Source: Bacteroidota bacterium
GTDB lineage: Bacteria; Bacteroidota; Ignavibacteria; UBA10030; UBA8401
Direction of reading: 5' to 3'
Assembly (NCBI GenBank): GCA_035506275.1
Contig: DATJPT010000019.1
Span: 310,001 to 374,000, forward strand
DNA length: 64,000 bases
Shown: positions 6,970 to 41,879 of the stretch, in pieces
Numbering within the stretch: the first letter of the stretch is position 1
Layout of the letters: every line of letters begins with the position of its first letter
Program-made: the position numbers and the translations under genes
Notes under the pieces: model-generated
What the model was told of the DNA's origin: nothing
The model's database searches: none
What the model saw: the letters and a program-made list of their open reading frames with translations, nothing else

Positions 6970-8325
6970 ATGAACGATGTACTTCGTTCCGCAGCCGAGC
7001 GGGCAATCAAATATCTCGAAGGTCTGGAAAGAAGGGGAGTGAGGCCCGATCCTGACGCTGTTCGGCGGCTGCAGGAATTGGATATACCATTCCCTGAAAC
7101 GCCGGCTCAACCGGATGCAATTCTGCGCATGCTCGATGAGTACGTCTCGCCCGCAACGATGGGGATGGCCGGACGGAGATTTTTCGGTTTTGTGATCGGC
7201 GGGGCGCTTCCGGCTCCGCTCGCCGCGACGTGGATGGCAGCCGCGTGGAACCAAAACAGCGCTCTCTATCAAGTGACGCCGGCAACGGCCCATCTTGAGC
7301 GGGTTGCCCTTCAATGGCTTGTCGCTCTTTTCGGATTGCCTTCGTCGTGCGGAGGGGCCTTTGTCACAGGAGGGACGCTTGCGAACTTTACGGCGCTCGC
7401 TGCGGCGCGTCATGCGGTCCTTGAACGCGCAGGCTGGAATGTCGAGGCCGACGGCTTGAACGGCTCTCCGCCCATGACCATTGTCGTCGGCGATGAAGTC
7501 CATCCGTCGCTGATAAAATCATTGGGACTATTAGGACTCGGGCGCGCGCGGGTTCACCGAGTGCCGGCGGACCCTCAAGGAAGAATGCTGGCGAAGGCGA
7601 TGCCGCGCCTCAAGGGACCTGCGATCGTTTGCGCTCAGGCGGGGAACGTCAACACCGGGTCATTCGATCCGTTCGATGAGATTTGCGCCCGCGGTCACGA
7701 TGCGGGTGCCTGGGTTCATGTCGATGGGGCATTTGGATTGTGGGCCGCCGCGGCGCCTGGACGCAAATACTTAACGGAGGGAATGACGAATGCAGATTCG
7801 TGGGCGACCGACGCTCATAAATGGCTGAACGTTCCGCTGGATTCCGGTCTTGCATTTGTCCGAGACCGGGAAGCGCTCCGCGCGGCGATGGCGATCACCG
7901 CAGAGTATCTGCCGACGGAATCTGAGTTTCGAAACCCATCCGATTATGTCCCGGAATTGTCACGGCGTGCCAGGGGAGTGGAAGTCTGGTCTTCGTTGAT
8001 TTCACTCGGACGGACGGGGCTCGTGGAGTTGATCGAACGGACATGCCGTCACGCCGAACGGTTTGCGGAAGGGTTGACTGCCGCAGGTTTTCAGGTCTTG
8101 AATGATGTCGTTATCAATCAGGTTCTTGTATCATTCGGCGACGCGGTAGCGACGCAGAAAGTGATTGCGGAAATTCAAGCGGACGGAACGTGCTGGTGCG
8201 GCGGAACTGTCTGGCAGGGGCATACGGCGATGAGAATCAGCGTGTCGTCGTGGGCAACGACCGAGGAAGATGTCGAACAATGTCTTGCGGCGATGATACG
8301 ATGCGCCAAGCGGCATGTCAGGTAA
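6970..8325 (+). CDS. Pyridoxal-dependent decarboxylase (group II amino-acid decarboxylase family)
   Basis: 451 residues of fold-type I PLP enzyme, related to aromatic amino acid, glutamate and tyrosine decarboxylases. The PLP lysine is Lys284 in TDAHKWLNVP. HVDGAFGLWA carries the Asp that pairs with the pyridine nitrogen, and GGTLANFTALAAAR is the phosphate-binding segment. The N-terminal YVSPATMGMAGRRFFGFVIGG and WNQNSALYQVTPATAHLE are typical of this family. The substrate cannot be read from the sequence; candidates include aromatic amino acids, glutamate or aspartate. It starts 30 bases after folA without an obvious ribosome site. Its 3' end overlaps the converging flavoprotein gene by 8 bases. 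Confidence 0.9.
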   Translation: MNDVLRSAAERAIKYLEGLERRGVRPDPDAVRRLQELDIPFPETPAQPDAILRMLDEYVSPATMGMAGRRFFGFVIGGALPAPLAATWMAAAWNQNSALYQVTPATAHLERVALQWLVALFGLPSSCGGAFVTGGTLANFTALAAARHAVLERAGWNVEADGLNGSPPMTIVVGDEVHPSLIKSLGLLGLGRARVHRVPADPQGRMLAKAMPRLKGPAIVCAQAGNVNTGSFDPFDEICARGHDAGAWVHVDGAFGLWAAAAPGRKYLTEGMTNADSWATDAHKWLNVPLDSGLAFVRDREALRAAMAITAEYLPTESEFRNPSDYVPELSRRARGVEVWSSLISLGRTGLVELIERTCRHAERFAEGLTAAGFQVLNDVVINQVLVSFGDAVATQKVIAEIQADGTCWCGGTVWQGHTAMRISVSSWATTEEDVEQCLAAMIRCAKRHVR

Positions 8326-9625
8326 CCGGGGAGCTACCGGTACTTTCTCCGGAAGAGGCGTTCATTCGCCAATCTTCGGCGGCCGTTTCTCCGGCGACAT
8401 AGCCGGTTGAGAACGCTGCCTGCAAATTGTATCCGCCGATCGGTCCCGCCACGTCAAGTGCTTCACCGCAAATATACAGTCCCTTGAGTATTCGCGACCT
8501 CATTGTTTTCGAGTCGACTTCGTGAAGAGCAACTCCTCCGGCGGTCACTTCCCCCCGTTCGATCGGGATTTCCTTCACCCTGCCGATGTGCCAGCTTTTC
8601 AACGCCCGAACGACCGACGCCCGCTCCTCCTTTTTCAATTGATGACATTTTTTCCCCGGATCAACTCCGATGGAAATTACAATGAAAGGGGCCAGCCGTT
8701 GAGGGACAAATAATTCAACGAGCGTTTCCACGCTTCTTGCTCCGTTGGCCGTAATCTCGGAAAGGACTGTATTTTCAAGCTCGCCTTCGTCCTTATCCGG
8801 AGCTGCATCCACAAAAACGTCCGCTATGGTGCCCCCCTTCGACGCCCCAAAAACCTCGCGGCTGATCTCCAATGCCGTCGGACCTGAGATTCCCTCATGA
8901 GTAAAAAGAAGATCGCCACGCGCTGATGCGACGGGTTTGCCGGATATTTTTGCCTTAAGGATCGAATCCCGCATCGATACGCCTTGCCACGCCGCCGGCG
9001 GCTTTGGATCGAGGAGGATCGGAGCAAGCGCCGGGCTGAGCGGAACGATCGTGTGGCCGAGATCTTTCAGCCAGCGAAAGCCTTCGCCGGTGGTCCCTGT
9101 TTTCGGGTAGGAGGCGCCGCCCGTAGCGAGCACCACCTGGCGTGCCTGATGGAAGCCGGCGGCGGTCTTAATGCCGGAAATGCCGACGCTGTCGCAAAGA
9201 ATTTCTTCCACCGGATGAGAAAGTTGAATTTCAACCCCCTCTTTTTCCATCATTCGTCGCAATGCATGAACGACATCCCCTGCTTTGCCGCTCGTCGGAA
9301 ATACCCGGCCATTTTCCCGCTCGTACGTTTCGACGCCAAACTGTCTTAATCGTGAGAGAATATCATGATTGGTAAATCGGTGCATCGAATGTTTCAAAAA
9401 TATCGATTCATTTCTTCTGAATTGACCGCACACGCTTTCGATCTCCCCGCCATGGGTGATGTTGCATTTTCCCCCTCCCGAGATGAGAAGTTTAATACCG
9501 AGCCGTGAATTTTTTTCCAGGAGAGTCACTGCCGCACCGAGTGCGCCGGCCCGCCATGCCGCGATCATTCCTGCAGCCCCGCCGCCGATCACGACGACGG
9601 GAGAGTACTTATGCGATTTTAACAC
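8318..9625 (-). CDS. HI0933/YhiN-type FAD-dependent oxidoreductase
   Basis: 435 residues. The N-terminal VVVIGGGAAGMIAA is the FAD dinucleotide-binding turn. LLISGGGKCNITH is diagnostic of the HI0933 (YhiN) flavoprotein family, as are GGASYPKTGTTGEGFRW, LLFTHEGISGPTALEISR and the C-terminal GEALDVAGPIGGYNLQAAFSTG. The biochemical role of the family is not well defined. The gene stands alone on the minus strand, converging on the decarboxylase and diverging from uppS. Confidence 0.92.
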   Translation of the reverse strand: MLKSHKYSPVVVIGGGAAGMIAAWRAGALGAAVTLLEKNSRLGIKLLISGGGKCNITHGGEIESVCGQFRRNESIFLKHSMHRFTNHDILSRLRQFGVETYERENGRVFPTSGKAGDVVHALRRMMEKEGVEIQLSHPVEEILCDSVGISGIKTAAGFHQARQVVLATGGASYPKTGTTGEGFRWLKDLGHTIVPLSPALAPILLDPKPPAAWQGVSMRDSILKAKISGKPVASARGDLLFTHEGISGPTALEISREVFGASKGGTIADVFVDAAPDKDEGELENTVLSEITANGARSVETLVELFVPQRLAPFIVISIGVDPGKKCHQLKKEERASVVRALKSWHIGRVKEIPIERGEVTAGGVALHEVDSKTMRSRILKGLYICGEALDVAGPIGGYNLQAAFSTGYVAGETAAEDWRMNASSGESTGSSPVT

Positions 9626-39589: not shown

Positions 39590-39627
39590 ACTGCAAAAAG
39601 ATGAGCATCTCTTGGAGTGTTGAGGAC

Positions 39628-40257
39628 ATGCGACGGCGTCTCTCTTTTTTGTTAATGCTTGTGCTCTCATCGTCATTGTGCGCACACGGGCAGGATTCCA
39701 CGTCCACCGAGTTTCAAAGTACAGAAACAACGTCCTACGACAACGCAATGGAAATTCTGTCGACCGTCGTTCTGGTCCCTCTTGCCATCGGTTCCACAGC
39801 CATCAGCATTGTTCCCCCCAGCGGCGGAATTATTGTCGAAAACGGCAAAGGACACGGTATCCTGGCGTTCGAAACGGGGGTCGGGTTCGGCGAGAAGATC
39901 GATCTGAAAAGGTTTTCGGATATGCGGTTCACGGTTGGATATACGCATATTTTCAGCGAGGAGCAGAAAGATTTTGTCCGCTGTGAAGCCACGGGAGATA
40001 TTCATCTGACGTTTGTCGATAGACGGGAAATTTTCCTCCTCGGCGTCAGTCCTTCTGCGGGGATCATAACGAATTTTCCGTCCACCGGCTATTCGCTTGG
40101 CGCGTCATCGTGGGTAATGACGCCGTGGCTTTCGTATTTCGGTTTCATTCCTCAACACACGTTCGCCATCACGTACCGTTACAACAAATTTTTTGGAGGG
40201 AAAGGCTTTGGAGAAATTTCCGCCGGGATGTCGGCGGCATTTACATGGGGATGGTAA
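39628..40257 (+). CDS. Secreted or outer-membrane protein of unknown function
   Basis: 209 residues. Signal peptide MRRRLSFLLMLVLSSSLCAHG, then mainly amphipathic beta segments (GILAFETGVGFGEKIDLKR, RFTVGYTHIFSEEQKDFV, HTFAITYRYNKFFGGKGFG), ending AAFTWGW. This suggests a small outer-membrane barrel. The start is uncertain: ATG at 39601 gives nine more residues before the signal peptide, while ATG 39628 has GGAG ten bases upstream. It follows uvrA by about 40 bases. I do not recognise a family. Confidence 0.7.
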   Translation: MRRRLSFLLMLVLSSSLCAHGQDSTSTEFQSTETTSYDNAMEILSTVVLVPLAIGSTAISIVPPSGGIIVENGKGHGILAFETGVGFGEKIDLKRFSDMRFTVGYTHIFSEEQKDFVRCEATGDIHLTFVDRREIFLLGVSPSAGIITNFPSTGYSLGASSWVMTPWLSYFGFIPQHTFAITYRYNKFFGGKGFGEISAGMSAAFTWGW

Positions 40258-40282: not shown

Positions 40283-40310
40283 TTGACAATGAACCAAACA
40301 TCATTATATT
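40283..40310 (+). promoter_or_regulatory. Promoter of the cysteine-rich leader operon
   Basis: TTGACA (40283-40288), 16-base spacer, TATATT (40305-40310): among the best sigma-70 matches in the window. Counting 7-9 bases from the -10 puts the start at 40317-40319, at or just before the ATG (40319) of the leader ORF. The mRNA would then be leaderless, which fits the lack of a ribosome site. Confidence 0.7.
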
Positions 40311-40318
40311 AAGACGTA

Positions 40319-40447
40319 ATGAAGTCGATCAATTTCAATAGCCGTTCAACAAGCATCCGCTTAAACATCTGTTGTAATGCGGCGTGTTGTTGCTGTACTC
40401 CGAGCAATGCTGTTGATGGAATTGGAAGGATGGCCGTGCGGCTGTAA
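40319..40447 (+). CDS. Cysteine-rich leader peptide (42 codons)
   Basis: A short ORF of 42 codons with Cys at 18, 19, 23, 24, 25 and 26 (CCNAACCCC), so six of nine consecutive codons are Cys. There is no Shine-Dalgarno sequence, and the promoter at 40283-40310 places the transcript start at the ATG. After the stop (40445-40447) come 26 bases and then a perfect intrinsic terminator, followed by DUF4395 and sulfurtransferase genes. The peptide is most likely a ribosome-stalling sensor of cysteinyl-tRNA, not a working protein (inference). Similar polycysteine leaderless ORFs are reported in mycobacteria upstream of cysteine-related genes. Confidence 0.78.
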   Translation: MKSINFNSRSTSIRLNICCNAACCCCTPSNAVDGIGRMAVRL

Positions 40448-40503
40448 AAGGCGCAAATAAGTTTCAAGGAACGAACCCTCTTCTATCAACATAGAAGAGG
40501 GTT
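40346..40503 (+). promoter_or_regulatory. Transcription attenuator with alternative RNA helices
   Basis: Four segments can pair in exclusive ways. Segment 1 (40346-40356) pairs with 2 (40407-40416): TCAACA with TGTTGA and GCAT with ATGC, with one bulged A at 40352. Segment 2 (40411-40421, TGTTGATGGAA) pairs with 3 (40481-40491, TTCTATCAACA), 11 pairs with one G-U. Segment 3 (40474-40486) pairs with 4 (40491-40503) as the terminator. The Cys codons (40370-40375, 40385-40396) lie between 1 and 2, so a ribosome stalled there would hinder 1:2, free segment 2 for 2:3 and prevent termination. Helices were found by eye; energies were not computed. Confidence 0.7.
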
Positions 40504-40508
40504 TTTTA
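40474..40508 (+). terminator. Intrinsic terminator within the leader (attenuator)
   Basis: AACCCTCTTCTAT (40474-40486), loop CAAC, exact reverse complement ATAGAAGAGGGTT (40491-40503), and a T-run at 40502-40507. It lies between the leader ORF and the DUF4395 gene, so it must be read through for downstream expression. Confidence 0.92.
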
Positions 40509-40540
40509 TTTATTACCAATTATCGAAAGGAATCACAGAT

Positions 40541-41005
40541 ATGCCAAACGGAATTACTCGCGTGGACCGGACGGCGCTCAAATTCAATCAGGCATCGATC
40601 ATCACGATCGTCGCTGCCGCTTTTGTGTCCCAGCTCCCCTGGCTCCTCGCGGCACTGGCACTGGTGTTGCTCGTTGGCACTGCCGTGCCGTCTGCGGGAG
40701 CGTTCAAGCTCTTCTACGCCAAAATTCTTCGTCCGCTCGGAATCTTGCGCCCGGATGTTGTCGAAGAGGACAATGTCCAGCACCTCTTCGCTCAGGGCCT
40801 CGGCGGGATTTTTCTGATCGCCGCATTTGCCTTGCTGATCGAAAGCAATTATCCGGTGCTCGGATGGGGGATTGCATTTCTTGTCGCGGCACTTGCTCTC
40901 GTCAATCTTACCGTTAATTTCTGCCTCGGATGTGTCCTCTACCTCCGCCTGCGGCGTTGGTCGTACTTTACGAAGATATTCTTGAAACGCGTTACCAACT
41001 ATTAA
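40541..41005 (+). CDS. DUF4395 membrane protein
   Basis: 154 residues with about three or four membrane helices (ASIITIVAAAFVSQLPWLLAALALVLLVG, GIFLIAAFALLIE, GIAFLVAALALVNLTVN). The CLGC pair (Cys128, Cys131) in NFCLGCVLYL is typical of DUF4395. An N-terminal VDRTALKFNQ is conserved in the family. DUF4395 members occur beside thioredoxins and sulfurtransferases, so the Cys pair may carry thiol or sulfur redox chemistry (inference). AAGGA nine bases before the ATG. It is the first gene after the attenuator. Confidence 0.88.
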   Translation: MPNGITRVDRTALKFNQASIITIVAAAFVSQLPWLLAALALVLLVGTAVPSAGAFKLFYAKILRPLGILRPDVVEEDNVQHLFAQGLGGIFLIAAFALLIESNYPVLGWGIAFLVAALALVNLTVNFCLGCVLYLRLRRWSYFTKIFLKRVTNY

Positions 41006-41027: not shown

Positions 41028-41879
41028 ATGGCTTCAAACAACGGATATGCGAATCCCGGAGTGCTTGTCAGCACCGATTGGGCGCTGGAGCATTTAAAGG
41101 ACGGGAATTTGCGGTTCGTCGAAGTGGATGTCGACACCACCGAGTACGACAAAGGACACATCGAAGGGGCGATCGGCTGGAATTGGAAGACGCAGCTTCA
41201 GGACCAGACGCGGCGCGACATACTCAGCAAGGAACAGATCGAGCGGTTTCTCGGTGAGTCGGGAGTCGGACCGGAAACGGGATTGATCTTGTACGGGGAC
41301 AATAACAATTGGTTTGCCGCGTACGCATTTTGGCTGTTGAAGTATTACGGGCATGCCGATGTTCGGCTGATCAACGGCGGTAGGAAAAAATGGGCGGCCG
41401 AAGGGAAGCCGTTAACGACGAATGTTCCGCGCTATGCCGCAAGGACATATAAAGTCTCCAAGATTGAGACGGATCTTCGCGCGCTCAGAGAATCCGTGTC
41501 CAATCGTCTCACCGATTCGACGCACGGGCTTGTGGATGTCCGTTCGAACGACGAGTTCACCGGAAAAATTCTGGCGCCTCCCGGCTTGCAGGAGCTGTCG
41601 CTTCGCGGCGGGCACATTCCGGGAGCAAAAAATATTCCCTGGTCGCAAGCGGTGAATGAAGATGGAACATTCAAATCAGCCGCAGACCTGAAAGCGCTGT
41701 ATGAAGGAAAAGGAATTGTACCGGGATTGAAAGAGGTGACAACCTATTGCCGCATCGGCGAACGTTCGTCGCATTCCTGGTTCGTCCTAAAGTACCTTCT
41801 TGGCTACCCGAAAGTGCGCAACTACGACGGATCGTGGACCGAATGGGGCAACCTCATTAATGCGCCGATAGAGAAATAG
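41028..41879 (+). CDS. sseA: Thiosulfate/3-mercaptopyruvate sulfurtransferase (two-domain rhodanese, CysA type)
   Basis: 283 residues, two rhodanese domains. The catalytic Cys241 is in TYCRIGERSSHSW; this CRIGERS loop matches actinobacterial CysA sulfurtransferases as I recall them. The N-terminal domain has Asp at the corresponding position (LYGDNNNWFA) and is structural. The enzyme transfers sulfane sulfur from thiosulfate or mercaptopyruvate to cyanide or thiol acceptors. A strong GGAGGAGG precedes the ATG. With DUF4395 it forms the operon under the polycysteine attenuator, which fits a role in sulfur or cysteine supply. Confidence 0.94.
   Translation: MASNNGYANPGVLVSTDWALEHLKDGNLRFVEVDVDTTEYDKGHIEGAIGWNWKTQLQDQTRRDILSKEQIERFLGESGVGPETGLILYGDNNNWFAAYAFWLLKYYGHADVRLINGGRKKWAAEGKPLTTNVPRYAARTYKVSKIETDLRALRESVSNRLTDSTHGLVDVRSNDEFTGKILAPPGLQELSLRGGHIPGAKNIPWSQAVNEDGTFKSAADLKALYEGKGIVPGLKEVTTYCRIGERSSHSWFVLKYLLGYPKVRNYDGSWTEWGNLINAPIEK

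Follow-up and report, generated by a model that had tools for sequence, protein, structure and literature searches.

In the window, by which we mean the whole stretch of 64,000 nucleotides that was analysed, a short open reading frame (ORF) rich in cysteine codons lies directly ahead of the genes for a DUF4395 membrane protein and a CysA-type sulfurtransferase (Table 1). Its Cys codons are codons 18, 19 and 23-26, which places six of them within nine codons in the middle of the ORF, and the run ends 16 codons ahead of the stop codon. The leader peptide gave no match when searched against Pfam and NCBIfam, and no Shine-Dalgarno sequence was found ahead of its ATG. The sulfurtransferase is 59-67% identical to the cysA products of many phyla and has, in addition, a mercaptopyruvate sulfurtransferase-like match (E 3e-30) that stays below the cut-off. 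Upstream of the leader lies a gene (39601-40257, + strand) for a 218-residue protein that probably carries a signal peptide and for which Pfam gave nothing above the cut-off. The same genome contains another DUF4395 gene, which is of a longer type (G000:C20:14474-14878, L010), and no Cys leader was found there. The relative from the same genus (G001) is without DUF4395, so that a near neighbour for codon-level comparison is lacking. The ORF, the promoter, the terminator and the sulfur-related targets are read directly from the DNA. A preliminary description of the locus had claimed a 42-codon ORF with six Cys codons within nine (CC, then CCCC), its position before the DUF4395 and CysA-type genes, and the lack of a ribosome site. 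These claims held: Pfam supports both domains directly downstream, and the missing ribosome site does not weaken the case, being what one would expect if the start is leaderless. The promoter, the intrinsic terminator and the antiterminator pairing were absent from that description.

Table 1. Features of the leader region and the genes that follow it, in window coordinates.
Feature	Position	Strand	Basis or remark
Promoter: -35 TTGACA (40283-40288), 16-nt spacer, -10 TATATT (40305-40310)	40283-40310	+	11/12 consensus
Predicted transcription start, 5' UTR of 0-2 nt	40317-40319	+	inferred from the -10 position, no transcript data
Polycysteine leader ORF	40319-40447	+	42 codons, translation MKSINFNSRSTSIRLNICCNAACCCCTPSNAVDGIGRMAVRL, then stop
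Segment 1, can pair with segment 2 (protector hairpin 1:2)	40333-40351	+	MFE fold
Control codons TGT TGT (40370-40375) and TGT TGT TGC TGT (40385-40396)	40370-40396	+	
Segment 2, antiterminator strand	40411-40427	+	complementary to the terminator 5' arm
Intrinsic terminator (segments 3 and 4): 14-bp stem, 4-nt loop, then TTTATTTATT	40473-40504	+	-19.4 kcal/mol
Shine-Dalgarno-like AAAGGAA before DUF4395	40526-40532	+	read from sequence
DUF4395 membrane protein, first gene after the leader	40541-41005	+	PF14340, E 2.3e-27
CysA-type sulfurtransferase, two rhodanese domains	41028-41879	+	PF00581, E 8e-33

Runs of Cys codons are not rare by themselves, as CCCC sites numbered 33 genome-wide against 40 for a reversed-pattern control, and the weight is thus carried by their combination with promoter, terminator and target genes. 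The leader's density of six Cys in nine codons was reached by no short ORF across 100 dinucleotide shuffles of the whole window. Four Cys in nine together with a terminator within 70 nt arose at 0.017 per shuffled window; the real window has one such ORF, namely the leader. Pattern scans of the same genome (CCNNNCCCC and CCCC) returned chance-level counts only and no second leader, and a leader-profile search gave the window leader as the only good-scoring match. When Rfam was searched over the leader, no family reached its gathering score; weak matches to the PyrG leader and similar families at 40430-40513, far under the gathering scores, reflect the hairpin with its T tract and were rejected. 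One could suppose that the hairpin is merely the terminator of the upstream gene and that the ORF is a chance frame, since the 218-residue gene ends at 40257 and no other terminator was seen before 40473. We consider this very improbable, because a near-consensus promoter sits between that gene and the ORF, and because the combination is absent from shuffles and recurs with differing upstream genes.

Read as an attenuator instead, the locus meets the criteria of an amino-acid-rich short ORF before sulfur genes and of an intrinsic terminator between the ORF and the first gene. It also meets our membership criterion, a mutually exclusive antiterminator that uses the 5' arm of the terminator. The terminator begins 25 nt past the leader stop, between the leader and DUF4395, and ten base pairs can form between 40412-40421 (GTTGATGGAA) and 40481-40490 (TTCTATCAAC), giving a duplex of -15.2 kcal/mol (p=0.026 against shuffles). 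This complementarity is shown, and the corresponding pairing reached p<0.05 against dinucleotide shuffles in 29 of 32 loci, which are related to each other, so that a combined p-value overstates their independence. Two-sided compensatory changes in relatives, described below, support the antiterminator. The pairing of segments 1 and 2 is stronger than in shuffles at the majority of 17 loci (Fisher 1e-13), with p=0.11 for the window alone. As the part before the Cys run can pair with the antiterminator strand, the arrangement is the classical 1-2-3-4 one.

Folding with a simulated ribosome produced the antiterminator when the A site was at codons 18, 19 or 26, and a stem closed around the ribosome at codons 23-25. 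With the ribosome at the stop codon the antiterminator was not excluded, and the full-length transcript always favoured the terminator. This test is only partly in line with the proposed switch because the software lets the stem close around the ribosome and ignores kinetics; since the antiterminator was not excluded at the stop codon, the switch logic depends on kinetics outside the folding model.

The module recurs in relatives: a Cys-rich leader is followed, 18-37 nt past its stop, by a terminator with whose arm it can pair. Within the window's class, other families carry this module before sulfite reductase, cysA or DUF4395-MetY genes. The leader at L190 (genome G025; MSANHVHIARVLSAACCCCHPPVRGRWRTSVR, terminator at +26) is followed by genes for DUF4395, a thioredoxin-like protein and a Cys/Met-metabolism PLP enzyme (Cys_Met_Meta_PP), and that at L192 (G031; MNMKPGMKKNSVVLTCACPCQKVCCREGASP, +29) by cysA and genes for a PALP/CysM-like enzyme and a JAB protease. 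At L196 (G103; leader with CAACACCCCTC, +26), the leader precedes sulfite reductase, cysA, cysH, an acetyltransferase (cysE) and a PALP enzyme (cysK). L196 also has a SAM riboswitch (RF00162, 80 bits; 8261-8378, - strand), placed just 5' of a metB/Y-like gene that comes before the Cys leader; by sequence, two sulfur amino acid sensors thus stand in tandem. A profile built from these three leaders and that of the window recovered four further leaders in family f12 (L222-L225), each of which lies ahead of sulfite reductase and has its terminator at +24 to +30; L223 is distinguished from L224 by exactly one Cys codon. Weak class-level matches to the profile (E above about 1e-4) came without a terminator and were set aside.

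More widely, 13 of 110 cysA loci combined a Cys ORF with a terminator, a combination found in none of the shuffles, and all 13 belong to the window's phylum. That phylum includes G324, whose cysA locus matches that of Salinibacter altiplanensis (L052), which identifies the phylum as Bacteroidota as defined by GTDB. Family f38 has leaders rich in Cys plus Met, such as MNFHNQIHNFLVMPVAMCCMCMCCCMHMPGGSGTDMRK, and a profile search matched 20 of 92 genomes; the leader is present at all 19 f38 cysA genes sampled on the tree, and the gene after it encodes sulfite reductase. The Cys and Met codons of these leaders (L116-L131, L198-L216) are interleaved. The pairing core is GGTAGTGG with CCACTACC at most loci, GGCAGTGG with CC(A/G)CTGCC at three, and GATAGCGGG or GATAGTGGG with CCCGCTATC or CCCACTATC at two. 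These are two-sided changes that keep the pair, from G-C to A-T at position 2 and from T-A to C-G at position 3. The interleaving raises the possibility, inferred from sequence, of a joint sensor of both sulfur amino acids, and in our best reading, equally inferred, Met would be sensed alongside Cys in this family. The Streptomyces metNIQ leader (RCMCRRMC) resembles the f38 leaders (PMC8079986). The cysA loci of f29 and f48 (Salinibacter) were checked and have no Cys leader module.

Beyond the phylum, a scan of 80 named cysA loci found a Cys leader with a terminator just 5' of cysA in three Acidobacteriota (L032, L035 and L036), and the order of L035 has the module at 25 of 29 readable cysA loci. 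The antiterminator core of these bacteria pairs TCTGGC with GCCAGA, and in the wider core T-A (10) alternates with C-G (7) at position 2, and C-G with T-A (2) at position 4. The p-value of a single locus depends on where the Cys run is cut (0.036 or 0.18 for L035), so that covariation outweighs single energies. The profile A2 search missed all of the Acidobacteriota leaders, so that failure to match a profile is weak evidence of absence. In Chloroflexota, a CFX5 locus (L043) has a Cys leader and terminator just 5' of cysA with non-significant pairing. At an Anaerolinea CH2 locus (L031), a hairpin with a T tract lies 55 nt past the leader and about 800 nt before cysA, and pairing is absent. Membership of Chloroflexota is tentative on these grounds. 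The L031 leader, which ends at 612, has its Cys run abutting the stop in the manner of mycobacteria. An actinobacterial leader in Nocardia harenae (L097, MLTRRRTVDLCRLGGCCCLCR) lies about 610 nt before cysA without a terminator, in contrast to the window type.

The -10 element of the window promoter ends 8 nt ahead of the leader ATG, and from this location we predict that the leader starts leaderless, albeit without start-site data. Of 12 distinct non-f38 leaders, 8 have a TANNNT motif 8-10 nt 5' of the ATG, compared with 2.8% of background ATGs (p 2e-10), and the f12 leaders show TTGACA-17-TA(T/A)CTT-9-ATG. The f38 leaders have no TANNNT signal at leaderless spacing and presumably possess a 5' UTR.

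We regard the window element as very likely a ribosome-mediated transcription attenuator that senses charged tRNA-Cys, with the cysteine response being inferred; it is also probable, again by inference, that the genes are switched on when cysteine runs short. The preliminary proposal of a cysteinyl-tRNA sensor based on ribosome stalling at Cys codons is supported to this extent, as the best reading. RNA polymerase would initiate at or next to the leader ATG, and a 70S ribosome would load on the leaderless 5' end and trail the polymerase. With plentiful Cys-tRNA, the ribosome would pass the Cys codons and depart, segment 2 would be held by segment 1, whose exact fate and role are inferred, and the terminator would form and end transcription ahead of DUF4395. 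If charged tRNA-Cys ran short, the ribosome would stall at codons 18-26, leaving segment 2 free to capture the 5' arm of the terminator, and the blocked terminator would let DUF4395-cysA be transcribed. Translation and stalling of the leader are likewise inferred, as there are no expression or ribosome data.

Two rival mechanisms deserve mention. In translation attenuation of the mycobacterial style, a stalled ribosome would free the DUF4395 start, with the hairpin hiding or spacing its ribosome site; mycobacteria share the leader type and the targets (cysA2 and nirA), and there the control is described as translation attenuation. This is very unlikely here, because the 14-bp stem and T tract make an intrinsic terminator, the Shine-Dalgarno-like sequence sits outside the hairpin, and T-tract terminators recur before many targets. 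Alternatively, the Cys/Met-rich peptide could act as a metal- or redox-sensing nascent chain, responding for example to copper or zinc. Copper-binding motifs look similar to some f38 leaders, for instance MPMCMCCMCCMC, and redox status has also been suggested (Shell et al., 2015; PMC4633059). We give this idea very little credence, since the identified targets are all sulfur assimilation genes and include no metal transport, and since the peptides have only their richness in Cys and Met in common, whereas RNA pairing explains the remainder of the ORF. Transcription attenuation by charged tRNA-Cys remains the preferred reading.

When the leader label was placed on a tree of 117 cysA proteins, 115 of them different, seven changes were required, and well-supported branches force at least six of these; one row (L132) is an unlabelled duplicate of L196, which could reduce the number only marginally. 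The repeated changes imply repeated gains or losses, or a leader that travelled with its genes. A bolder reading, which we hold to be likely as a whole, is that of a widespread and undescribed family of terminator-based Cys attenuators, often leaderless, that controls sulfite reductase and cysA, extends over several FCB-group families, Acidobacteriota and part of the Chloroflexota, and in one family senses total sulfur amino acids by reading Cys and Met codons together. If true, these phyla, in which cysteine regulation is little studied, would have a cysteine sensor for sulfur assimilation that works without a protein. Attenuation requires a ribosome close behind RNA polymerase, so that with this module the coupling of transcription to translation can be put to the test in the FCB group and Acidobacteriota.

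The comparison with related genomes proposed in the preliminary description was positive, as in many relatives sulfur genes are preceded by a Cys-rich leader, an intrinsic terminator and an antiterminator that covaries; this recurrence and covariation are shown. Its framing within the FCB group needed correction, because Acidobacteriota also carry the leader and Chloroflexota probably do so. Its claim of an undescribed system failed as to kind, since Cys-leader attenuation is known in mycobacteria and predicted before cysS in Rhodobacterales. The Bacteroidota literature that we found treats leader attenuation in general terms only (PMC9723704, PMC7366714), and a terminator-based leaderless Cys leader in these phyla was not found in the literature searched, which covered few subscription papers. 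What is known is Cys-leader attenuation; what is new is its terminator-based version, predicted to be leaderless in the window, which is widespread in phyla where no description was found.

Leaders with Cys runs before cys operons of Actinobacteria were predicted in 2005, without terminators (Seliverstov, 2005; PMC1262725). A 2015 study of mycobacteria reported uORFs ahead of cysA2 and nirA that are leaderless and rich in Cys (Shell, 2015; PMC4633059). The latter have been called cysteine-responsive attenuators (Canestrari, 2020, cited in PMC9094748 and PMC13236596) and described as translation attenuation (PMC13236596). The analogy drawn to them at the outset held in part. The window leader shares with the mycobacterial polycysteine ORFs the short frame, the Cys run and the type of target, which in mycobacteria comprises cysA2 and the nirA/sulfite reductase operons; the mycobacterial ORFs start leaderless, as is predicted from the -10 position for the window leader. 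However, the mycobacterial Cys run is C-terminal near the stop, whereas that of the window lies mid-ORF and is followed by 16 further codons that carry the antiterminator, and the mycobacterial leaders have no conserved terminator, unlike the strong intrinsic one of the window, whose anatomy is that of transcription attenuation. The uORFC-8-2 motif before cysS of Rhodobacterales (PMC8632094) likewise combines a predicted Cys-codon leader with an intrinsic terminator, for which ribosome-mediated attenuation is predicted. It differs in having two Cys codons only, cysteinyl-tRNA synthetase as its target and a distribution confined to alphaproteobacteria, and leaderless geometry is not reported in the relevant passages. 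With the classical trp/his-type attenuators, the window element has in common the control codons, segments 1-2-3-4 and a terminator before the first gene, but it uses another amino acid, has its control codons between segments 1 and 2 and is predicted to start leaderless. Actinobacteria and the phyla considered here apply the same leader idea to the same genes with differing output steps, and the shared idea bears on the question of whether these leaders travelled together with cysA or evolved several times.
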